64,000 nucleotides of DNA from Parvibaculum sp. Its GTDB lineage: Bacteria > Pseudomonadota > Alphaproteobacteria > Parvibaculales > Parvibaculaceae. Below, in pieces: positions 8,478 to 63,831 of this stretch. The stretch's first letter is position 1. The number at the start of each line of letters is the position of its first letter. The stretch spans positions 1-64,000 of the forward strand of contig JAUSLL010000058.1 of the NCBI GenBank assembly GCA_030649335.1, in the 5' to 3' direction. Made by a program: the position numbers and the translations under genes. The notes below the pieces were generated by a model. It did no database searches. It was not told the origin of the DNA and saw only the letters and a list, made by a program, of their open reading frames with translations.

Positions 8478-9818
8478 ATGACCGTGAAAGAAAACGAAAC
8501 GGGGGCTTGGTCCAAGCTTTCGTTGGGGGCCACAGCGGTAACGCTGGGGCTGCTTGCAACAATGGGCAGCGCGTTTGCTGACGACGTGCCGACACTCAAC
8601 AGCGGCGATACCGCATGGATGCTGACCTCAACGGCCCTGGTGCTGTTGATGACCATCCCCGGTCTTGCCCTTTTCTACGGCGGTATGGTCCGCAAAAAGA
8701 ACGTGGTCACGATCAGTGCGCAGAATTTCGCGATCGTCGGCCTGATGACTGTCCTCTGGATGGTAATCGGCTACTCACTTGCTTTCACGTCCAATGCCAG
8801 CGAAGGCATCAATGCCTATGTCGGCGGATTTGACCGCATGTTCCTGTCGGGTCTCGGCGTTGATGCGATCTCGGGCACCATCCCGGAAAGCCTGTTCATG
8901 GTTTTCCAGATGACCTTCGCGATCATCACACCGGCGCTCATCACGGGCGCTTTTGCTGACCGCATGAAGTTCTCTTCCCTGCTCGTCTTCATGTCGCTCT
9001 GGCTCGTCTTCATCTACGCACCGATCTGCCATTGGGTCTGGGGCGGCGGCTTCCTGTCGGCTGACGGCGTTCTCGATTTCGCCGGCGGCACGGTCGTTCA
9101 CATCAATGCCGGTATCGCTGGTCTTGTCGCTTGCCTCGTTCTCGGCCCGCGCAAAGGCTACGGCACCGAAAACATGGCACCCCACAACGTCGTGCTCACG
9201 ATGATCGGTGCCGCCCTTCTGTGGGTGGGCTGGTTCGGCTTCAATGCCGGTTCGGAACTCGCCGCTGACGGCCGCGCCGCCATGGCCATGGTCGTCACAC
9301 AGATCGCCACAGGCACAGCCGTTCTCGCTTGGATGTTTGCCGAATGGATCGTCCACAAGAAGCCGACGCTTCTGGGCATGTGCTCGGGTGCCGTTTCCGG
9401 CCTCGTCGCCATCACACCGGCCGCAGGCTTTGTCGATCCCATGGGCGCGCTCTGGATCGGTATGGCTGCTGGCGTCGTCTGCTTCATTGCCTCGACCAGC
9501 GTCAAGCGCGCCATCGGCTATGACGATGCACTCGATGTCTTCGGCGTCCATTGCATCGGCGGCATCGTCGGCGCCGTGCTCACCGGTGTCTTCGCCACTA
9601 TGGCCATCACGGGTGCGGATGCTCCGGTCGGCGGCATTGACGGCAACTGGGGTCAGGTCATGATCCAGATCAAAGGTATCGCCTGGACCCTCGTTTACTC
9701 CGGCGTCGGCACCTTCGTTCTGCTGATGGTCACCAAGATCTTCTTCGGTCTGCGTGTCTCCCCGCAGGAAGAAGTCGAAGGCCTCGACATCAACCTCCAC
9801 GGCGAAACAGTTCAGTAA
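8478..9818 (+). CDS. amtB: Ammonium transporter AmtB-type (amt1)
   Basis: A 446-residue inner-membrane channel for ammonium with an N-terminal signal-like segment and eleven predicted helices. Canonical features are GLALFYGGMVRKKN near helix 1, both pore histidines (in ICHWVWGGGF and in DVFGVHCIGG), and a short cytosolic tail LRVSPQEEVEGLDINLHGE that PII proteins contact in this family. The ATG at 8478 follows GGAGAGACGG; an in-frame ATG at 8466 is possible. It is followed by an intrinsic terminator, then glnK and a second amt, so each gene seems to have its own nitrogen-responsive promoter. Confidence 0.93.
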   Translation: MTVKENETGAWSKLSLGATAVTLGLLATMGSAFADDVPTLNSGDTAWMLTSTALVLLMTIPGLALFYGGMVRKKNVVTISAQNFAIVGLMTVLWMVIGYSLAFTSNASEGINAYVGGFDRMFLSGLGVDAISGTIPESLFMVFQMTFAIITPALITGAFADRMKFSSLLVFMSLWLVFIYAPICHWVWGGGFLSADGVLDFAGGTVVHINAGIAGLVACLVLGPRKGYGTENMAPHNVVLTMIGAALLWVGWFGFNAGSELAADGRAAMAMVVTQIATGTAVLAWMFAEWIVHKKPTLLGMCSGAVSGLVAITPAAGFVDPMGALWIGMAAGVVCFIASTSVKRAIGYDDALDVFGVHCIGGIVGAVLTGVFATMAITGADAPVGGIDGNWGQVMIQIKGIAWTLVYSGVGTFVLLMVTKIFFGLRVSPQEEVEGLDINLHGETVQ

Positions 9819-39410: not shown

Positions 39411-40328
39411 CTAGTTCGGACGCGGCGCACCGCGACCGGCCAGACGGCGGCAAACCTCGTCAAGCTGTTCGAGCGATTTGTAGGTGACGCGCACTTCGCC
39501 GCCCTCGCCGCCCGTATGATGCACTTCGACTTTGAGGCCGAGCTGTTCGGAAATGCTTTTTTCCAGAGCCGCCGTGTCTGCGTCTTTTTCAGCCCGCACC
39601 GTGGAGCTCGCCCCTTTAGTGCGCGGCTCGGCACTGCCCGTGCTTGTCTTGCGCGCCAAAGCTTCGGCTTCGCGCACGCTCATTTTCTTGGAGACGATTT
39701 CACGCGCCAGTTCTTCTGCGCGCTCAAGTCCGATCAACGGACGAGCATGACCGGCGGTCAGGGTCCCCTCCTCGATCAGATTGCGCACCGAGACCGGCAG
39801 GCTCAGAAGCCGCATCGTGTTGGCGACATGGCTGCGGCTCTTGCCGATGAACTTTGAAACCTTGTCCTGCGTGTAATCGAACTGCTGCATCAGCCGGTCA
39901 TAGCCCGCGGCTTCTTCAACCGCATTGAGATCAGCGCGCTGGACGTTTTCGATGATGGCAATTTCAAGCGACTGCGCGTCGGTCAGTTCCTTGACCAGGA
40001 TCGGCACCTGATGCAGCTGCGCCTTTTGCGCCGCCCGCCAGCGCCGCTCGCCCGCAACAATTTCATAAGCGTCCGGCACATCCTTCACCGGCCGCACAAC
40101 GATCGGCTGCAGGATGCCCTGCTCGCGGATCGAGTTGGCGAGGTCGGTCAGTTCCTCTTCGCGGAATGTGTGACGCGGCTGGAACGGATTGGCGCGCAGA
40201 AATTCAATCGGCACTTCGCGCACGCCGCGCGGCGCCGGTGCCTGCTCATCGCCAAGCGCGAAAGCGGCGTCATCGCCGATCAGGGCAGCAAGGCCTCGTC
40301 CAAGGCGGCTCGGGCTTTCATCGGCCAT
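39411..40328 (-). CDS. parB: Chromosome-partitioning protein ParB
   Basis: The CTPase clamp protein has the ParB/Srx domain with PNPFQPRHTF-like ANPFQPRHTF, the CTP-binding GERRWRAAQKA, ENVQRADLNAVEEAAGY, a KSRSHVANTMRLLSLP HTH that reads parS, and a C-terminal dimer region LEQLDEVCRRLAGRG. The start MADESPSRLGRGLAALIGDD follows GGGG by nine bases and contains the ParA-interacting LGRGLAALIGD segment; in-frame ATGs up to 40460 lie upstream. Two perfect parS sites lie 1.8 and 3.9 kb away. Confidence 0.95.
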   Translation of the reverse strand: MADESPSRLGRGLAALIGDDAAFALGDEQAPAPRGVREVPIEFLRANPFQPRHTFREEELTDLANSIREQGILQPIVVRPVKDVPDAYEIVAGERRWRAAQKAQLHQVPILVKELTDAQSLEIAIIENVQRADLNAVEEAAGYDRLMQQFDYTQDKVSKFIGKSRSHVANTMRLLSLPVSVRNLIEEGTLTAGHARPLIGLERAEELAREIVSKKMSVREAEALARKTSTGSAEPRTKGASSTVRAEKDADTAALEKSISEQLGLKVEVHHTGGEGGEVRVTYKSLEQLDEVCRRLAGRGAPRPN

Positions 40329-40416
40329 TGTCATCATCCCCATCTGTTTCGCCTGTCTCTCATTTATGACCGGAGCCGCATGTCGCCACCGCCCCGTCGC
40401 ACCCACATCACGCATC

Positions 40417-40434
40417 TGATCCGTTAACGGATCA
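40417..40434. promoter_or_regulatory. 18-bp perfect palindrome upstream of parB
   Basis: TGATCCGTTAACGGATCA is exactly self-complementary and lies 89 bp before the ParB start. It may be an operator for parB expression, but the binding protein is unknown. Half of it (TTAACGGATCA) also occurs at 55361-55371. Confidence 0.5.
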
Positions 40435-40491
40435 ATAACCTTTGGCCCTATCGCCCGCACCGGCTAAGGCCTTGGGTAGAACCCGCCAAGC

Positions 40492-40625: not shown

Positions 40626-41555
40626 TCAAGCTGCGGTCTGGCGCAGGATCCGCTCGCGCCGGATCAGTTCGGACGCCAGCTTCATGTAAGCCTTGCTGCC
40701 CGCACAGCGATGATCATAGACCAGCGCCGGTTTGCCGTAGGACGGCGCTTCCGATAGGCGCACATTGCGCGGAATGACGGTCCGGTAAACCTTGTCGCCG
40801 AGATGCTGGCGCACGTCGCTCGCCACCTGGTCCGACAATTTATTGCGCTGGTCGAACATAGTCAGCACCACGCCCTGAATTTCAAGACGCGGGTTGAGGC
40901 TCGTCTTGACGCGTTCGACCGTGCGCAGCAACTGGCTCAGACCTTCGAGCGCAAAGAACTCGCATTGCAACGGCACGAGGATCGCGTCAGCCGCTGTCAT
41001 CGCATTGATGGTCAGCAGGTTGAGCGACGGCGGGCAATCGATAAGCAGATATGTGTAAGGGCGCTTTGTCATCTCGCGCTCCTTGTCGCTGTCCTCGCGG
41101 ACAACGCCACTGCGCGGCATACGCGCCAGCGCATCGCGCAAGCGATGCGAACGACGCGGCACCGAAGCCAACTCCAGTTCCGCGCCGAGCAAATCCATCG
41201 TGGACGGAACAATATCAAGCCCCGGCACTTTCGTCGGCACAACCGCATCTTCGATCAGCGCCGAACCGATCAGCACGTCATAGGCCGACACTTTACGTTC
41301 AGCGCGCGAGATGCCGAGACCCGTACTGGCATTGCCCTGCGGATCAAGATCGACAATCAGTACGCGCTCACCGACTGCCGCAAGCGCCGTACCCAGATTA
41401 ATTGCTGTGGTGGTTTTACCCACGCCGCCCTTCTGGTTGGCCAGCACCAGAATGCGCGGACGCGGCAGCGACGGCTCGATGCGCATAGGCGCAGCCGCTG
41501 CAGGCATTGTCGGTGTGCCGTTTACAGGATCAGTCTTCGCGTCGGAGATTTGCAT
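40626..41555 (-). CDS. parA: Chromosome-partitioning ATPase ParA
   Basis: The 309-residue Walker-type partition ATPase has the deviant P-loop ANQKGGVGKTTTAINLG near residues 38-54, the Walker A' VLIVDLDPQGNAST, and Walker B YLLIDCPPSL. An unusual 30-residue Pro/Ala-rich N extension precedes the fold. It moves ParB-parS complexes toward the pole. It overlaps rsmG by 26 bp and precedes parB by about 300 bp, so these form the conserved mnmG-rsmG-parA-parB block. Confidence 0.96.
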   Translation of the reverse strand: MQISDAKTDPVNGTPTMPAAAAPMRIEPSLPRPRILVLANQKGGVGKTTTAINLGTALAAVGERVLIVDLDPQGNASTGLGISRAERKVSAYDVLIGSALIEDAVVPTKVPGLDIVPSTMDLLGAELELASVPRRSHRLRDALARMPRSGVVREDSDKEREMTKRPYTYLLIDCPPSLNLLTINAMTAADAILVPLQCEFFALEGLSQLLRTVERVKTSLNPRLEIQGVVLTMFDQRNKLSDQVASDVRQHLGDKVYRTVIPRNVRLSEAPSYGKPALVYDHRCAGSKAYMKLASELIRRERILRQTAA

Positions 41556-42183
41556 GTTTGAGCCCCCAGAGCTTCAGCACCGTACCGGACCCGTCCGATT
41601 GGCTGGCCTTGGCTTCTGTCTCAAATATCCAATCTTTCCGCGATTGCGTCAATTCTTCCTTGACGCTGGCCCCCTTGGGGAAGAGCCCAATCGTCTGTTT
41701 TCCCCAGAAAGGTGATGTCCAGACGAGTATTTTGTCCAAACTGGCCAAAGCCCGCGCACTAATAATGTCAGGCGTCACCCCGTCCGGCATCTGCCAGTCT
41801 TCGATCCGGCAGGTGTGAACCGTCACCGGTAGGTCCATAATCCGCGCCGCCTCACGCAAAAATATGCCCTTGCGCTGATCGCTTTCCACCAGATGCATCC
41901 GGAATCCGGGCCTGTCGCGCAACATCGCCGCCGCCACAATCCCGGGAAACCCCGCCCCGCTCCCGACATCGAGCCAAAGCCGCGCTTCATCGGGCACAAG
42001 GGGCAAAAGCTGAGCAGAATCCCAGATATGCCGCGGCCAAATTTGAGTCAGTGTCGCTGACGAGATCAAATTGATGCTCTTTTGCCACTTCAGAAGCAGA
42101 GCTTCAAAAGCGCGAAGCCGCTCCATTGTTTCACGTGAAACACCGGAAACGGCTAAAAAGGATTCCGCATCAATGACTTGCAT
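41530..42183 (-). CDS. rsmG: 16S rRNA (guanine527-N7)-methyltransferase RsmG
   Basis: The 217-residue SAM-dependent methyltransferase modifies G527 in the 16S decoding region. Signatures are NLISSATLTQIWPRHIWDSAQLL, WLDVGSGAGFPGIV (SAM loop) and VHTCRIEDWQ. The start MQVIDAESF is preferred on length; an ATG at 42243 overlaps the mnmG stop and would add 20 atypical residues. The coding sequence for GVSRETMERL contains a perfect parS site, a known constraint on this gene in alphaproteobacteria. Confidence 0.94.
   Translation of the reverse strand: MQVIDAESFLAVSGVSRETMERLRAFEALLLKWQKSINLISSATLTQIWPRHIWDSAQLLPLVPDEARLWLDVGSGAGFPGIVAAAMLRDRPGFRMHLVESDQRKGIFLREAARIMDLPVTVHTCRIEDWQMPDGVTPDIISARALASLDKILVWTSPFWGKQTIGLFPKGASVKEELTQSRKDWIFETEAKASQSDGSGTVLKLWGLKHANLRRED
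42127..42142. promoter_or_regulatory. parS: parS site 1 (ParB-binding centromere), inside rsmG
   Basis: TGTTTCACGTGAAACA is the exact 16-bp parS consensus. It encodes the VSRET part of RsmG, so amino-acid and DNA-binding constraints coincide. Confidence 0.97.
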
Positions 42184-44214: not shown

Positions 44215-44230
44215 TGTTTCACGTGAAACA
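44215..44230. promoter_or_regulatory. parS: parS site 2, between mnmE and mnmG
   Basis: A second exact TGTTTCACGTGAAACA, immediately next to the mnmE stop codon at 44231. Confidence 0.97.
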
Positions 44231-54629: not shown

Positions 54630-55298
54630 TCAGACGCTCAGACGTGCCGCCTCGTCCGGCACACCGAACCCCAGATCAATGAAGACCGCGCGACGCAGCG
54701 TCAACGGCGGCGAAAGTTTGAAATCGAGGTCAGCCGCATCGACCGCCTGCCGCGTCACCACCGTGCCGGCAATTCTGTTCTTGCCGTCTACGCCACCCGA
54801 CACCGGCAGGTTGATCAACTCGCACAGATAAGGCACGCCGTCCGGCCCGCGCAATTCGCGCAGCGTCAGAAGACCGCAAGGATGGGAATGCATGAGTTTC
54901 AGACGGGCAATATCGTCGGCCTTGCCCTCGTAATCCACACCACCGAATGTGCAAAAACCGGTGAGGTCAAACCCCGTGGTCTCGACAAGCGCGCTGCCAA
55001 AAATACGAAAGACGAGGCTCGTCTCGCTTTCCCAGCACAGCAAACGGAAATAGGGAAGCAGTTCAACCAGCGCCTTGGGGCTGACGTCGTCAGGCTCAGG
55101 CATCGGACTGGCCCCGCGCGCCTCAAGCCACCAGGCGAAGAATTCACGGGTCATGGAGCTGAGTTCAATATCACCCGCATGGGTCGGCGCCTCAGGTCCG
55201 GTACCGGCGAGCCGCGCTTTGACCCCGCTGATGGTGGACCAGGCCAGCGCCGGCCAGACCCACGCAGTCCGCTGCTTCTCGGCTTGCTCACCCGACAT
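54630..55298 (-). CDS. PAS_5 domain protein (paralogue 2)
   Basis: A 222-residue PAS_5 protein sharing most motifs with its neighbour: WLEARGASPMPEPDDVSPKALVELLPYFRLL, VFRIFGSALVETTGFDLTGF and LTLRRAVFIDLGFGVPDEA. It differs at the loop with VDYEGKADDIARLKLMHSHPCGLL, which both keep. The pair is a likely local duplication with divergence at the N termini. Confidence 0.78.
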   Translation of the reverse strand: MSGEQAEKQRTAWVWPALAWSTISGVKARLAGTGPEAPTHAGDIELSSMTREFFAWWLEARGASPMPEPDDVSPKALVELLPYFRLLCWESETSLVFRIFGSALVETTGFDLTGFCTFGGVDYEGKADDIARLKLMHSHPCGLLTLRELRGPDGVPYLCELINLPVSGGVDGKNRIAGTVVTRQAVDAADLDFKLSPPLTLRRAVFIDLGFGVPDEAARLSV

Positions 55299-56170: not shown

Positions 56171-56217
56171 TTACGTATTCATCGAGTCCCCGAACACGTT
56201 TACGTGTTCATCGAGTC
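56171..56217 (-). repeat. Direct repeat of the rho 3' end
   Basis: The last 18 bp of rho, encoding Asp-Ser-Met-Asn-Thr-stop (56200-56217), are repeated at 56171-56188 with one mismatch, 11 bp beyond the stop codon. Confidence 0.8.
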
Positions 56218-57465
56218 AAAGAACTCGCCGTTGCTCTTCGTCTGCTTCAGCTTATCGAGCAGGAACTCGACCGCATCGACCGTGCCCATCGGGTTGAGAA
56301 TACGACGCAGCACATACATCTTCGACAACGTGCCCTTATCAACGAGCAGCTCTTCCTTACGCGTGCCGGACTTGAGAATGTCCATCGCGGGGAAGACGCG
56401 CTTATCGGCGATCTTGCGATCGAGCACGATTTCGGAGTTACCCGTGCCCTTGAATTCTTCAAAGATCACTTCGTCCATGCGCGAGCCGGTATCGATCAAC
56501 GCGGTCGCAATGATCGTCAGCGAGCCGCCCTCCTCGATGTTACGCGCCGCACCGAAGAAACGCTTGGGGCGCTGCAACGCATTGGCGTCCACACCACCGG
56601 TCAGCACCTTGCCCGAAGACGGCACGACCGTGTTGTAAGCGCGACCAAGACGTGTGATCGAGTCGAGCAGGATCACGACGTCACGGCCATGTTCGACAAG
56701 ACGCTTGGCCTTTTCGATGACCATTTCAGCGACCTGAACGTGGCGCACAGCCGGTTCATCGAAGGTGGAGGAAATGACTTCGCCCTTCACCGAACGCTGC
56801 ATGTCCGTCACTTCTTCAGGACGTTCATCGATCAGCAGCACGATCAGATAGCATTCAGGATGATTGGTCGTGATCGAATGGGCGATGTTCTGGAGAAGAA
56901 CCGTCTTACCCGTGCGCGGCGGCGCGACGATGAGGCCACGCTGACCTTTGCCGAGCGGCGCCACAATGTCGATGAGGCGCGACGAGCGATCCTTCAAAGT
57001 CGGATCGGCCACTTCCATCTCGAGTTTTTCGTCAGGATAAAGCGGCGTCAGATTATCAAAGTGGACCTTGTGGCGCGCCTTGTCGGGGCTCTCGAAATTA
57101 ACCGTCGAAACCTTCAGCAGCGCGAAATAGCGTTCACCGTCTTTCGGCGAGCGGATCTCGCCTTCCACCGTGTCGCCTGTGCGCAGCGAAAAGCGCCGGA
57201 TCTGCGTCGGGGAGACATAGATATCGTCGGGACCCGGCAGATAGTTTGCTTCCGGCGAACGCAGGAAGCCGAAACCGTCCGACAGCACTTCAACGACGCC
57301 TTCGCCGATAATGTCGATGCCCTGCTCGGCATATTGTTTGAGGATCGCGAACATCATGTCCTGGGTGCGGAGCGTCGAAGCGTTTTCCACTTCAAGCTCT
57401 TCGGCAATCGCCAGAAGTTCGGTCGGCCCTTTGGCCTTGAGGTCCTGCAGTTTGATCTGCGGCAT
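56200..57465 (-). CDS. rho: Transcription termination factor Rho
   Basis: The 421-residue hexameric helicase has an N-terminal RNA-binding domain ([52 protein letters not shown]), P-loop [20 protein letters not shown] near residue 175, and the secondary RNA-binding Q/R loops. AGGTAG-like sequence is near the start. The gene is left of the hem genes, an order conserved in Caulobacter and many relatives (rho-hemJ-hemH-hemE). Its last five codons plus stop are duplicated just downstream. Confidence 0.97.
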
Positions 57466-57810: not shown

Positions 57811-58257
57811 TCAGAACGGCTTCACAATCACCAGAATGACGATGAAGACCACGAGCAGCGGCGGCACCTCGTTGACGATCCGGTAGAACTTCGTCGAGCG
57901 CGTGTTGCGGTCAGCGGCAAAGTCTTTGCGATATTTGGAATAAGCGCCATGCGCGCCGAACATCAGGAAGAGAAGCGCCAGCTTGGCGTGGAACCAGCCC
58001 TGTTTCATCAGGTCAGGGTTTGCCCAGATCATCAACAACCCGAAGACCAGAGTGGCGATCATCGCGGGGTTGATGATCCCGCGCAGGAGCAGCCGTTCCA
58101 TCACCTTGAAAGTTTCGGACTTGTCGGAACCGACCTCGGCCTGCGAATGATAGACGTAAAGCCGCGGCAGATAGGCCATGCCCGCCATCCAGAAGATGAC
58201 CGAGATCACATGCAAGGCTTTGATCCAGAGATAATAATCAGCGAGAAAATCACTCAT
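57811..58257 (-). CDS. hemJ: Protoporphyrinogen oxidase HemJ (CopD-like)
   Basis: The 148-residue integral membrane protein has the HemJ pattern: YLWIKALHVISVIFWMAGMAYLPRLYVYHSQ (two parts; the conserved His and the haem-binding region), FLMFGAHGAYSKYRKDF and a C-terminal hydrophobic helix. HemJ oxidises protoporphyrinogen IX in bacteria lacking HemG/HemY. It lies 10 bp downstream of hemH, consistent with a haem operon. Confidence 0.92.
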   Translation of the reverse strand: MSDFLADYYLWIKALHVISVIFWMAGMAYLPRLYVYHSQAEVGSDKSETFKVMERLLLRGIINPAMIATLVFGLLMIWANPDLMKQGWFHAKLALLFLMFGAHGAYSKYRKDFAADRNTRSTKFYRIVNEVPPLLVVFIVILVIVKPF

Positions 58258-58267
58258 CGTCAGGGTC

Positions 58268-59323
58268 CTATCTCACATCCGTGCCGCAATGCCGGCCGGC
58301 TGCCTCTTCAGGGCAAATCATCGAGCTGCTTTCGCGCGCTTCCATCACAAGACGGGCAAGGCCGCGAATGAAATCGGGGTGTGTGCCGAGCGCCGCGACG
58401 CGCAAATAACGCGGCACGCCCGCGTGTTTGGCAAGTTCGCCATATTCAAGATCGAGCTCAACGAGCGTTTCGGAATGTTCCGAGACAAAGGCAATCGGCA
58501 CCACGATCAGGCTCTTGCCTTCTTTGCCCGCCGCTTCAATTTCCTTATCCGTCGCAGGTCCGATCCATTCCATCGGCCCGACGCGGCTCTGAAAACACGT
58601 TCGCCAGTCAAACGGCCCGCCGCCGACACCGGCCATCACCGCCGCGCATGTCGCCTCGATCTGTGTCTGATAGGGGTCGCCGCCCGTAATCACGCTTTTG
58701 GGCAGACCATGCGCCGAGAACAGAATCCGGAACTCGTCACGTGTCGAGAAGGCGCCGATGGCGTCACGCAGCAGCGCCACATGGGCTGCCACGAAATCAG
58801 GGTCCAGAGGATAACAACAAATCGTCTTGGCACGGGTATGGAGGCCTGCCGCCTTGGCCGCACGGTCCCAATCTCTGAACGATGATTCAGTTGTTGTGGT
58901 CGAGAACTGGGGATAAAGCGGCAGCAGGACGATTTCATCCGGTGCCCAGGCCTTGATCTCGCGGGCCGTATCGCTCGCAAAAGGCTTCCAATAGCGCATC
59001 GCGGGAAAGGCTCGAACCTCGACAGGAATAGGCTCGGAACTGACAGGAAAAGCTCGGTTTTCGAGTTCACCCTCGAGGGCCCTCGCCTGTGCCTCGGTGA
59101 GTGGCAAAATGGGTGAGCGACCGCCCATCTGGGCATAGATTTCCTTCGCGATTGGCGCACGCCGTCTGGAGATGATCTTCGCGATCAGCCAACGAAACGG
59201 CTGCGGCACCCGAATAATGGCGCGATCATTGAACAAATTGAAGAGGAATGGCTCAACAGCCTCGGGCCCGTCAGGTCCCCCAAGGTTGAAAAGCACCACC
59301 GCCAGTTTCCGCGCCCGCTTCAA
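58268..59323 (-). CDS. hemH: Ferrochelatase
   Basis: A 351-residue ferrochelatase that inserts iron into protoporphyrin IX. Motifs: LFNLGGPDGPEAVEPFLFNLFND at the start, MRYWKPF, LFSAHGLPKSVITGGDPY (active-site His region), CFQSRVGPMEWIGP and VPIAFVSEHSETLVELDLEY (conserved His/Glu). It overlaps hemE by 4 bp. Confidence 0.96.
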   Translation of the reverse strand: MKRARKLAVVLFNLGGPDGPEAVEPFLFNLFNDRAIIRVPQPFRWLIAKIISRRRAPIAKEIYAQMGGRSPILPLTEAQARALEGELENRAFPVSSEPIPVEVRAFPAMRYWKPFASDTAREIKAWAPDEIVLLPLYPQFSTTTTESSFRDWDRAAKAAGLHTRAKTICCYPLDPDFVAAHVALLRDAIGAFSTRDEFRILFSAHGLPKSVITGGDPYQTQIEATCAAVMAGVGGGPFDWRTCFQSRVGPMEWIGPATDKEIEAAGKEGKSLIVVPIAFVSEHSETLVELDLEYGELAKHAGVPRYLRVAALGTHPDFIRGLARLVMEARESSSMICPEEAAGRHCGTDVR

Positions 59324-60390
59324 GCTTTAAAACCCCGCACCAGTTCGACAAGCTCACCGACATGATCCGGTGGCGTCTGCGGCACGATCCCATGCCCCAA
59401 ATTGAAAATAAATGGCTGATTTCCTAAGGTTTCCATGATGTACGCGACACCCGCCCGCATCTCTTTACCACCCGCAACAAGCAGCAGCGGATCAAGATTA
59501 CCCTGCAAAGGAACCATCGGCTGCACGTTATCCCGCGCCCAGTTCAGCGACATGCCGGTATCAAGACTAACCGCCTGAATACCAGTTTCGCGCACATAAT
59601 CCGTCACGAGCGGCCCCGCCCCGCGCGGAAATCCGATAATAGGAACAAGAGGATAGCGGGTTTTAAGCGCAGAAACGATCCGTTTGGCCGGCTCAATTGC
59701 AAAGCGCCTGAATGCCGGTTCCGGCAAGCTCCCAGCCCATGTATCAAATATCTGAAGGACTTCCGCGCCCGCCTCCACCTGTTCGGACAAATGCAGGATT
59801 GTAGCTTCGACAAGCAGATCAATAAGCTTCTGAAACTCGTCAGGTGCCCGGTAAGCCCATGATTTTGCGGCCCCTTGGTCGGGTGATCCTCGTCCGCCCA
59901 CCACATAGGTCGCCACCGTCCAGGGCGCACCCGCAAAACCGATCAACGTGGTTTCTTTAGGGAGGGATAGCTTCAGCCGCCGCACGGTCTCATAGACCGG
60001 CTGGAGGTGATCCGTGACGCGAGCCAGATCAAGCTTCGCAATCCCCGCCAAATCCGTAATGGGATCAAGGACCGGCCCCTCACCCTCCTTGAACCCGACC
60101 GTCTGCCCGAGAGCATCCGGCACCACCAGAATATCCGAGAACAGTATCGAGGCATCAAAACCGAACCGACGGATCGGCTGCAAAGTCACTTCCTCAGCCA
60201 GCTCCGGCGTATAACAGAGCGTGAGGAAACTCCCCGCTTCCGCTCTCACCTTCCGGTACTCCGGCAAATAGCGCCCAGCCTGACGCATCAGCCAGATCGG
60301 TGTCTGATCGCTACGTTCTTTAGCTAAAACCTGAAGGAGCCTTTTCGGTATCACTGCGGTCGCTTTGCTCACAGATTTCTTCTCTTCCAT
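59320..60390 (-). CDS. hemE: Uroporphyrinogen decarboxylase
   Basis: The 356-residue HemE makes coproporphyrinogen III. Signatures are WLMRQAGRYLPEYRKVRA near 33-50, ASILFSDILVVPDALG with the catalytic Asp, and FAGAPWTVATYVVGGRG. The C-terminal GNLDPLLL and HGIVPQTPPDHV are also diagnostic. It is the left border of the presumed origin gap, and hemE is also the left flank of Caulobacter oriC. Confidence 0.96.
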   Translation of the reverse strand: MEEKKSVSKATAVIPKRLLQVLAKERSDQTPIWLMRQAGRYLPEYRKVRAEAGSFLTLCYTPELAEEVTLQPIRRFGFDASILFSDILVVPDALGQTVGFKEGEGPVLDPITDLAGIAKLDLARVTDHLQPVYETVRRLKLSLPKETTLIGFAGAPWTVATYVVGGRGSPDQGAAKSWAYRAPDEFQKLIDLLVEATILHLSEQVEAGAEVLQIFDTWAGSLPEPAFRRFAIEPAKRIVSALKTRYPLVPIIGFPRGAGPLVTDYVRETGIQAVSLDTGMSLNWARDNVQPMVPLQGNLDPLLLVAGGKEMRAGVAYIMETLGNQPFIFNLGHGIVPQTPPDHVGELVELVRGFKA

Positions 60391-60930
60391 AAAGCTTAGT
60401 CTTTAGGTGGTGGTAGTTGAGGATGGCTGTGCGTCACGGGGATTAAAGGTTGAGGACCATTCCATCCACATTATCGCCATCGCCGCGGGCATCGTCCGTT
60501 CCGGGGTCCTTCTATCGCACGGCCTGTGCAAAATTTCAGCACCCGATCTCAAAAATCAACACAACCGGCAGCTTTGCCGCAGTCTCTCCGGCGTCCATAT
60601 GTTCGTGTTTTTCCTGTGGGCAAAAACAACAACGGGGATAGATGGTAGGGCCCGGCCTCAGGGTCCAAACGATCCCCAGAATTCAACGAGGCCTTCATGT
60701 TTTCTTCACCGCCTGATGGTTCGGGGGAGGGAAAACCAATCACGTGTATGGCTTGGTAGGGCTTTGGAAAATCAGGTCACTTGCCCCCGTTAATCACAGT
60801 TTTCCACAGACACATCCATATAATGTGACCGCGCAAGCAGATGGGCTCAATCCGCAAAAAGACTGGCAAGCACAAGGCGCGCTCGTTAGCTTGGCCGCCC
60901 GATCCCGCGCCAAAACACTCAAGGAACTCC
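60391..60930. other. oriC: Probable chromosomal replication origin (oriC), hemE-ppsR gap
   Basis: The 540-bp gap separates hemE (-) from ppsR (+), the same context as the Caulobacter and Rickettsia origins (hemE-RP001). DnaA-box-like sites matching TTWTNCACA are TGTGCAAAA at 60525-60533 (minus) and TTTTCCACA at 60800-60808. A TCCATCCACA near 60460 and a TCCCCA near 60673 resemble weak boxes. A-rich stretches (60530-60560, 60625-60640) could unwind. parS and ParA/ParB are 16-20 kb away. No coding gene is supported here. Identity is strong by context, moderate by sites. Confidence 0.65.
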
Positions 60931-61755
60931 ATGGCCTCCAGACGCGTCTTCCATCTGCATCTCGTCTCGGACGCCACCGGCGAAACCCTGAACGCTGTCG
61001 CGCGCGCCGCCTGCGCTCAATATGAAGACGCCCATCCCGTCGAGCATGTCTACGCGTTGGTGCGTGGTCCCAAGCAACTCGAGCGCGTGCTCGCCGAAAT
61101 TGAATCTGCTCCCGGCATCGTCATGTTCACGATGGTCAACGAAGAGCTTCGTCAGCGCCTCGAAGCGCGCTGTGTGGAATTGCAGACACCTTGTATCTCG
61201 GTCCTCGATCCGGTTATGGGTGCCCTCGGTCGCTATCTCGGCAAGGAAAGCTCGCACAAGCCCGGCTCCCAGCACACGATGAACGCGGAATATTTCGGCC
61301 GCATCGAAGCGCTGAACTACACGATGGCGCATGATGATGGTCAGTCGGCAGGTGATCTCAATGAGGCCGATGTCATTCTTGTCGGCGTCAGCCGGACATC
61401 GAAGACGCCAACCTGCATCTATCTCGCCAATCGCGGCATCAAAGCCGCTAATATTCCGATTGTCCCGGGCGTCGTGCTGCCGCCTGATCTCGAAACCGCC
61501 AAGCATCCGCTCATCGTCGGCCTCACCACCAGCCCCGACCGCCTCGTCCAGATCCGCAAGAACCGCTTGCTGTCGCTTCATGAAAACACACAGACAAGTT
61601 ATGTCGATCACGACGCGGTGGAAGAAGAAGTCGCGATTGCACGCAAACTCTGCGCCCGTCACGGTTGGCCGGTGATCGATGTCACGCGCCGCTCAATTGA
61701 AGAAACGGCCGCTGCTGTTCTCAACCTCTATAATGAACGCCAGAAAATAAGCTGA
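60931..61755 (+). CDS. ppsR: Pyruvate phosphate dikinase / PEP synthase regulatory protein (DUF299)
   Basis: A 274-residue bifunctional kinase/pyrophosphorylase that controls PPDK or PEP synthetase by ADP-dependent phosphorylation. P-loop-like [26 protein letters not shown] (two parts) near 150-175 and [16 protein letters not shown] at the start are diagnostic. AAGGAA precedes ATG 60931. It is the RP001-type gene that flanks the origin in other alphaproteobacteria. Confidence 0.93.
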
Positions 61756-61760
61756 ACTCT

Positions 61761-62363
61761 ATGGTCTTGTCGCATTCCCCTCTCCTTCTCGCCTCCGGCA
61801 GCCTGGTCCGCGCAAACCTGTTGCGCGGGGCCGGCGTGACATTCGAAATTCAAAATTCGCGTGTGGATGAAGACGCGATCAAAGAAAGATTCGCCGACAG
61901 CGATATTGATGCGCTGGCGATCCTTCTTGCTGAAGCCAAAGCATTGGCGGTCAGCAAGGAAAATCCGGCCGCTCTGGTCATAGGTGCAGATCAGATTCTA
62001 TCGTGCAACGGCGAACGTTTTGACAAACCGCATGACATGACCGAGGCCCGGTCAAATCTGCAAAAATTCCGCGGTACGTCGCACCGTCTCCACAGTGGTA
62101 TTGTCCTTGCTCAAGACGGGCGCATTGTCTGGCGTCATTCAGATCACGCTGATCTTACCATGCGTCCTTTTTCAGACTTATTTCTCGACGACTATCTGGC
62201 GCTGGTGGACGACAAGGTGCTGACAAGCGTCGGCTGCTATCAGCTCGAAGGTGCAGGTATTCAGTTGTTTGAAAAAATCACTGGCGACTATTTCACAATT
62301 CTTGGTTTGCCACTGTTGCCGCTATTGGCGGAACTGCGTGCACGCGGTGTGGTGGGCACATGA
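61761..62363 (+). CDS. maf: Maf-family nucleoside triphosphate pyrophosphatase
   Basis: A 200-residue Maf/HAM1-like protein that hydrolyses non-canonical or excess nucleotides. Family points are [18 protein letters not shown] (in place of the usual ASGSPRRRELL), [27 protein letters not shown] and [21 protein letters not shown]. The opening SGS is kept but P-R-R is altered to L-V-R, so metal/phosphate contacts may differ. It overlaps aroE by 4 bp. Confidence 0.9.
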
Positions 62364-63211
62364 TTTCCAAAGTCTGTGTCATGGGCTGGCCGATCGCGCA
62401 TTCGCGCTCGCCGCTCATTCACAATTTCTGGATCCATCAGCTCGGCATCAAGGATGCGGTCTATGAACGCTTGCCCGTAGCACCGAAAGATCTCGTCGAC
62501 ACATTGCGCCATTTGCGCGACTGGGGTTTCGTCGGCGCGAATGTCACCGTGCCTCACAAAGAGGCGGTCTACGCGAGCCTCATGCGTCATGACGCGCTTG
62601 CGCATCGGTTGAAAGCGGTCAACACGATTGTGATGACTGAACATGGATTGGAAGGCCGCAACACAGATGGCTATGGGTTCATGGCCAACCTTGCAGACCG
62701 TGCGCCGAACTGGCGGGCGGCTGCCGGCCCCGCCGTTATGCTCGGCGCGGGTGGTGCTGCCCGCGCTGTTGCCGCCGCTTTGGATGATGCCGGCGTGCCA
62801 GAGCTTCGCATCGTCAACCGCACGGCCGCGCGCGCGCAAACACTGATCAGCGATCTGGCACTTAAGTGCGCAAAGTTTTTCCATTGGGACGATATGGCGT
62901 CAGCGCTCAACGGCGCCAATCTTCTCGTCAATACGACCAGCCTCGGCATGGCGGGTGAGCGCGACCTAGAAATCGATCTCACGCCATTGCCGTCAACGGC
63001 ACTTGTCACAGACATTGTCTATACGCCGCTCGAAACCGGATTGCTCACGGCAGCGCAGGCTCGCGGCCTCAAAACGGTTGATGGTCTCGGCATGTTGCTG
63101 CATCAGGCCGTGCCGGGTTTCGAAGCCTGGTTCGGCAAACGCCCGCAGGTAACGCATGCCTTGCGCAAGCTTGTGCTCGCTGACATGGGAATTACGGAGG
63201 ATAGCGCCTGA
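62360..63211 (+). CDS. aroE: Shikimate dehydrogenase (NADP+)
   Basis: The 283-residue enzyme reduces 3-dehydroshikimate. Signatures are [18 protein letters not shown] at the N terminus (shikimate-binding SRS), [16 protein letters not shown] with the catalytic Lys-Asp area, [20 protein letters not shown], and the nucleotide motif [16 protein letters not shown]. It overlaps maf by 4 bp and coaE by 1 bp. Confidence 0.95.
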
Positions 63212-63831
63212 TGCTTCTGATCGGTCTCACCGGCTCCATCGGCATGGGAAAATCCGAAACCGCCAAAATGTTCTCCCGTCTCGGCGTGCCGGTCTATGAT
63301 GCGGACGCTGCCGTGCACGCGTTATATGCCAAAGGCGGTGCCGCAGTCGCGCCTATGGCTGACGCCTTCCCGCATGTCATCGTTGACGGAGCGGTCGACC
63401 GTCAGGCTTTGTCGCGTGCCGTGCTCGGCTTGCCTGATGAAATGAAAAAACTCGAAGCCATCGTGCATCCGCTTGTCGGTAATGCGCAGCTTGAATTTTT
63501 GAAAGACGCAAAAGCAGCGGGTCACGAAGCAGTGCTGCTCGACATTCCGCTGCTTTATGAAACCGGCGGCGAGAACCGCGTCGATGTTGTCGTTGTGGTG
63601 AGCGCACCTTTTCACATTCAGGAACAGCGCGTGCTGGCGCGACCCAATATGGACATGGCAAAATTTGCCGCGATCCACGCCAAGCAAGTCCCTGACGCCG
63701 AAAAGCGCCGTCGCGCCGATTTCGTCATCGACACGGACAAAGGTCTTGAACATGCTTTCGAAGCGGTCAAAGCCGTTGTCGCCGCACTCAAAGGCCGCGA
63801 AGGCAAAGTGCTCGCCGCCCGTCTTCTCTGA
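63211..63831 (+). CDS. coaE: Dephospho-CoA kinase
   Basis: The 206-residue kinase finishes CoA synthesis. P-loop [17 protein letters not shown] sits at residues 5-21, [11 protein letters not shown] contains the conserved Asp, and [26 protein letters not shown] and RVLARP cover the lid. The order aroE-coaE-dnaQ is conserved right of the origin in alphaproteobacteria. Confidence 0.95.

Follow-up and report, generated by a model that had tools for sequence, protein, structure and literature searches.

The divergent hemE-ppsR spacer as the predicted chromosome origin of Parvibaculum

The chromosome origin of Parvibaculum very probably lies in the divergent spacer between hemE and ppsR. The window analyzed here comprises bases 1-64000 (64,000 nucleotides) of contig C62 (126,198 bp), which belongs to a 3.54 Mb draft genome of 135 contigs (G000), and it was compared with the Parvibaculum relatives G001, G002, G006, G013 and G024. 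Judging from these comparisons, positions 60391-60930 are very likely to represent a bidirectional origin of the hemE-RP001 (DUF299) class of Caulobacter and Rickettsia, as a first-pass annotation had presumed from the window alone. The polarity of FtsK-orienting octamers (KOPS) reverses at the spacer in four relatives, the window's own contig shows a step in skew and the AT skew changes sign, while the proximity of parS, conserved box-like blocks and class-wide synteny point to the same place. An earlier prediction of a Parvibaculum origin was not found in the literature that we searched. It is well supported that the Parvibaculum spacer is an ordinary and unsurprising alphaproteobacterial origin at the standard site of the class, and the oddities in its vicinity are secondary. 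The assignment would fix the origin and the arm layout for a genus that is used in surfactant-degradation work.

The gene order around the spacer is the one that had been claimed, with haem genes to the left and ppsR-maf-aroE-coaE-dnaQ to the right, as assigned by Pfam:

60391..60930, no strand, predicted chromosome origin, divergent hemE-ppsR spacer of 540 bp with 53.5% GC
59320..60390, minus strand, hemE, uroporphyrinogen decarboxylase, left boundary (PF01208, E=1.3e-117)
60931..61755, plus strand, ppsR, kinase/pyrophosphorylase (DUF299/COG1806), RP001 homologue, right boundary (PF03618, E=1.1e-94)
58268-59323, minus strand, hemH (Pfam)
57811-58257, minus strand, hemJ/UPF0093 (Pfam)
56200-57465, minus strand, rho (Pfam)
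61761-62363, ppsR side, maf (Pfam)
62360-63211, ppsR side, aroE (Pfam)
63211-63831, ppsR side, coaE (Pfam)
63866-64549, ppsR side, dnaQ-type exonuclease (Pfam)

The closest named matches of ppsR stem from a Parvibaculum MAG (95% identity) and from P. sedimenti HXT-9 (91%), and a second in-frame ATG is located upstream at 60841, outside the conserved start. All 25 of 25 distinct Parvibaculum sequences contain the divergent hemE-ppsR spacer with a measured size of 474-564 bp. It is also present in the other alphaproteobacterial loci examined, with the two genes 3.9 kb apart on draft contig L100, and no hemE match was found beside ppsR in three betaproteobacterial loci. The sole match in an Rfam search of the spacer was a snoRNA below threshold that we attribute to chance.

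The octamer GGGCAGGG, which orients FtsK, flips its polarity at the spacer in G001, G002, G024 and G006. In G001 it is the most polarized of all octamers between the putative origin and terminus, its counts on the ppsR strand and the other strand being 2:38 on the hemE arm and 45:8 on the ppsR arm (Fisher p = 9e-16). The best change point in this genome is at 2.007 Mb and the spacer at 2.0173-2.0178 Mb; the 2-unit support of the change point is scattered, comprising 13 grid values that begin at 2.005 Mb and reach up to 2.535 Mb. A second reversal between 65,173 and 70,607 lies about 1.95 Mb from the spacer at the putative terminus of G001. Neither a search for an E. coli-like dif pattern (G013 and G001) nor a scan of G001 50-70 kb for dif-like palindromes gave anything convincing. 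In G024 (spacer at about 532 kb, ppsR at 533 kb), the forward strand carries few copies of the octamer as far as 486 kb and many from 571 kb onward, and G002 has only 3 forward copies up to 445 kb before they become dense from 522 kb (spacer at about 484 kb, ppsR at 485 kb). The closest relative, G006, shows 1:7 versus 16:4 (p = 0.002). On the window's own contig the counts are 0:6 on the hemE side and 2:2 on the ppsR side, the latter being too low to reveal a polarity.

On the own contig (126 kb), the gene-corrected GC skew at 4-fold sites (GC4) is close to 0 on the ppsR side and between -0.17 and -0.30 on the hemE side. The best change point of this step is 61,811 with a 5-log-unit support of 60,289-62,539, which places the step about 1 kb or less from the spacer. 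Its log-likelihood gain is 186, and 1000 gene shuffles reached 77 at most. The corresponding AT4 skew flips its sign at the spacer from +0.111 to -0.045 in G001 and from +0.170 to -0.057 in G006. The first-pass annotation had seen a hint of a skew switch in hand counts, which are exact (18 G and 23 C at 9241-9300, 19 G and 12 C at 61321-61380), but two 60-bp samples prove nothing. Its suggestion to look for the minimum of the cumulative GC skew is misleading: G001 is negative on both arms with the uncorrected minimum at the contig end, and GC4 keeps its sign across the spacer in both G001 and G013. Raw cumulative GC skew was rejected as an origin marker in G013 and G001, where it is noisy or offset and its minimum uninformative. 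On both arms of G001, C outnumbers G at the 4-fold sites of the strand encoding ppsR (p = 9e-10 and 6e-14 at the gene level), and G013 shows the same after undoing the inversion described below, so that GC skew does not track leading and lagging strands in these genomes. A strand bias of the gene-corrected method was considered and dismissed, as the mirror test was exact and the arms of an E. coli control give opposite GC4 signs. Overall, plain cumulative GC skew is misleading in Parvibaculum, and the markers that carry information are KOPS and AT skew. An analysis based on GC skew only would put the origin in the wrong place or miss it, but the FtsK octamer and AT skew find it.

The presence of parABS near the spacer, which had also been claimed, was confirmed by locating parB, parA and two perfect parS sites:

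39411..40460, minus strand, parB (PF02195, HTH_ParB and ParB_C)
40626..41555, minus strand, parA (AAA_31/CbiA)
42127..42142, no strand, first perfect parS, TGTTTCACGTGAAACA, within the 5' end of rsmG
44215..44230, no strand, second perfect parS, in the gap between mnmG and mnmE

These two perfect parS are the only ones of the genome and lie 16-18 kb from the spacer. Every genome of the genus with at least 90% completeness contains parS, usually two, and in species with one contig spanning both, parS is found 13-18 kb from the spacer on the hemE side. The dnaA gene is located about 118-127 kb from the spacer or ppsR on the ppsR side (G001, G002, G006, G024). As in many bacteria, the origin could adjoin dnaA and the hemE-ppsR spacer could be a mere divergent promoter region. 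The numbering of the published DS-1 chromosome (G013, 3,914,745 bp) indeed starts at dnaA and the spacer does contain promoter-like elements. However, GGGCAGGG is found on the forward strand on either side of dnaA in G001 (2.1446 Mb) and reverses about 100 kb away near hemE-ppsR, the dnaA contig of the window's own genome (C117) does not exceed 2 boxes per 540 bp, and the parS sites are near hemE instead of dnaA. We thus regard an origin at dnaA as highly improbable.

An origin elsewhere within a few tens of kb, in the parAB-mnmG region or inside ppsR-maf, would make the hemE-ppsR spacer a merely close neighbor. Such a shift would agree with the resolution of KOPS, which is no finer than some tens of kb, and with the GC4 change point of the own contig, which is best at the ppsR/maf junction, about 3 log units ahead of the spacer. 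Still, the deficit relative to this best position is 3.3 log units at 60,400 compared to 45 at 55,000 and 26 at 70,000, and the conserved box-like blocks reside in the hemE-ppsR spacer. Moreover, the alphaproteobacterial origins proven or predicted in PMC1914354 and PMC2443382 sit at the hemE-ppsR cluster. Hence, there is very little chance that one of these neighboring positions is the origin, and we favor the hemE-ppsR spacer itself.

G013 is very probably P. lavamentivorans DS-1. Compared to G001, G013:C1 contains an inverted block of about 1.3 Mb that starts at dnaA (position about 0) and reaches about 1.30 Mb, and the KOPS octamers in this block mostly point away from the terminus (17:5). 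Such an orientation fits a recent inversion or an assembly error in the published chromosome. The arm inversion in the DS-1 reference needs checking before this chromosome is used to define origin or terminus.

Alignment of the spacers of 25 species (17 once near-duplicates were dropped) together with a box scan revealed the following elements:

60414..60449, no strand, conserved block tagtnnngGATgnCTGTGnatgnCGGGGATcAaa, degenerate DnaA-like box followed by TCCCCG
60462..60470, plus strand, DnaA-box-like CCATCCACA, TCCACA core near-invariant across the genus
60525..60533, minus strand, DnaA box TTTTGCACA, exact TTWTNCACA, adjoining gccTGT conserved
60615..60625, minus strand, overlapping weak box-like TTTTGCCCA and TTGCCCACA (box scan)
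60628..60643, no strand, conserved block with TCCCCG, W-box-like AAnancGgGGAcAa (alignment)
60667..60684, no strand, conserved block with W-box-like TCCCCA, CGATCCCCA in the window and GTCATACCCGTTTT in most other Parvibaculum
60739..60756, no strand, conserved block, inverted partner of 60667-60684, ACGGGTATGACC in most relatives and degenerate in the window
60780..60813, plus strand, conserved block ctTacncCCGTTaatCACAgcttTCCACAggc with tandem box-like sites
60863..60892, plus strand, conserved promoter-like tTGGC ... CGaTAnnTT (alignment)

The strongest two blocks inside the spacer are 60414-60449 and 60780-60813. The former has the top mean information content within the spacer (1.44), exceeded only by the ppsR coding start, and its consensus combines a box-like TGTG(G/A)AT with CGGGGATCAAA. 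Its box reads TGACGCACA on the minus strand with 2 mismatches in the window and TCATCCACA in several relatives. The latter block contains TTAATCACA (60790-60798, 1 mismatch) and TTTTCCACA (60800-60808, exact) in a register of 10 bp and is part of the spacer's least stable 50-mer. By its sequence, the element at 60863-60892 is probably the ppsR promoter. The inverted pair GTCATACCCGTTTT ... ACGGGTATGACC is conserved in most Parvibaculum spacers (L014-L032), degenerate in the clade of the window and rare outside the spacer in the sampled genomes.

Both TTWTNCACA sites reported by the first-pass annotation, 60525-60533 and 60800-60808, are present. As the 64-kb window contains 5 such sites versus 2.1 expected, the Poisson probability of two within 540 bp is about 2e-4; the two exact sites are unlikely to occur by chance but are weak evidence alone. 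At up to one mismatch, the window spacer holds 5 boxes, including the 2 exact ones, and the spacers of the different species hold 3-8, whereas 540 bp of genome sequence contain 0.23-0.56 on average. About 0.4% of the 540-bp windows of the own contig equal the box richness of the spacer, which counts against the origin reading. The earlier statement that the DnaA boxes are few and degenerate is roughly correct for the window sequence but misleading, since the relatives align more conserved box-like blocks. W-boxes have the form TCCCC, and 3 such motifs, which are predicted to be W-box-like, lie in blocks of the window spacer that are conserved across relatives. With 46.5% AT, the spacer exceeds the contig around it by a few points, and its predicted least stable 50-mers belong to the lowest 1.6-1.8% of the contig; where they lie differs between species.

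CtrA sites of the form TTAA-N7-TTAA were not found in the spacers of 25 species even when one mismatch was allowed, and the implied role of CtrA is thus left without sequence support. According to a review (PMC4468827), such sites are not seen in most other alphaproteobacterial origins, and their absence from the Parvibaculum spacers is therefore expected. The IHF consensus WATCAANNNNTTR, in its strict form only, gave no match in the same 25 spacers. A mechanism relying on other proteins, which the first-pass annotation had considered, does not have to be invoked because the DnaA sites of Caulobacter Cori are typically weak and few as well, and its W-boxes are very weak DnaA sites, as stated in that review (PMC4468827).

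DnaA could bind to a few weak sites in the spacer, namely TTTTGCACA, the tandem TTAATCACA/TTTTCCACA and the degenerate TCCACA and TCCCC sites, before it would oligomerize and open an adjoining less stable stretch, for which 60597-60647 or 60779-60829 are candidates. After helicase loading, forks would depart toward hemE and toward ppsR, and ParAB might segregate the newly copied origin via parS 16-18 kb away. The location, the synteny, the reversal of polarity and the conserved box-like blocks were observed directly, and DnaA binding, the opening site and bidirectionality in living cells are what we infer for this origin.

The origin of Caulobacter crescentus, Cori, has been proven to lie between hemE and COG1806 (PMC1914354). 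It shares with the Parvibaculum spacer the same divergent flanking genes and a similar size, weak and sparse DnaA sites and TCCCC W-box-like motifs (PMC1914354, PMC4468827). Unlike Cori, the 25 Parvibaculum spacers are devoid of TTAA-N7-TTAA CtrA sites and of the strict IHF consensus, and the best boxes in the window are of the TTWTNCACA type instead of the TGATCCACA type. The hemE-RP001 origin of Rickettsia has the same flanking pair with a spacer of about 380-400 bp (PMC1914354), but Rickettsia spacers contain about 82% AT versus 46.5% in the window spacer, whose predicted least stable stretches reach no further than the bottom 2% of the contig. The origin of Azorhizobium caulinodans was placed via the alphaproteobacterial origin gene cluster and the polarized GGGNAGGG (PMC2443382). 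GC skew matched KOPS in Azorhizobium, whereas GC4 does not reverse at the origin in Parvibaculum G001 and G013.

In the P. sedimenti-like clade, which comprises the species of the window and G006, a strong one-sided GC4 patch is restricted to the hemE arm (C62 1-60390 and G006:C58 1,660,000-1,790,000), with the ppsR arm near zero. The patch has a sharp edge at the origin. Its size on the hemE side is 0.17-0.30 over 60 kb in G000, and in G006 it declines along 130 kb from 0.29 to 0.08. At 4-fold sites it reflects mainly the replacement of C by G rather than of C by T. It is conceivable, though unlikely, that the two forks leave the spacer origin under different conditions. The forks could then start unequally, perhaps with a delay or in part in one direction only; alternatively, the asymmetry could be a slow-fading memory of an older arm arrangement. 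In several Rhodospirillales/Kiloniellales (L103, L105, L107 and L108), whose skews are not independent because the same orthologous genes are involved, the hemE side has a stronger GC4 skew within 10 kb than the ppsR side.
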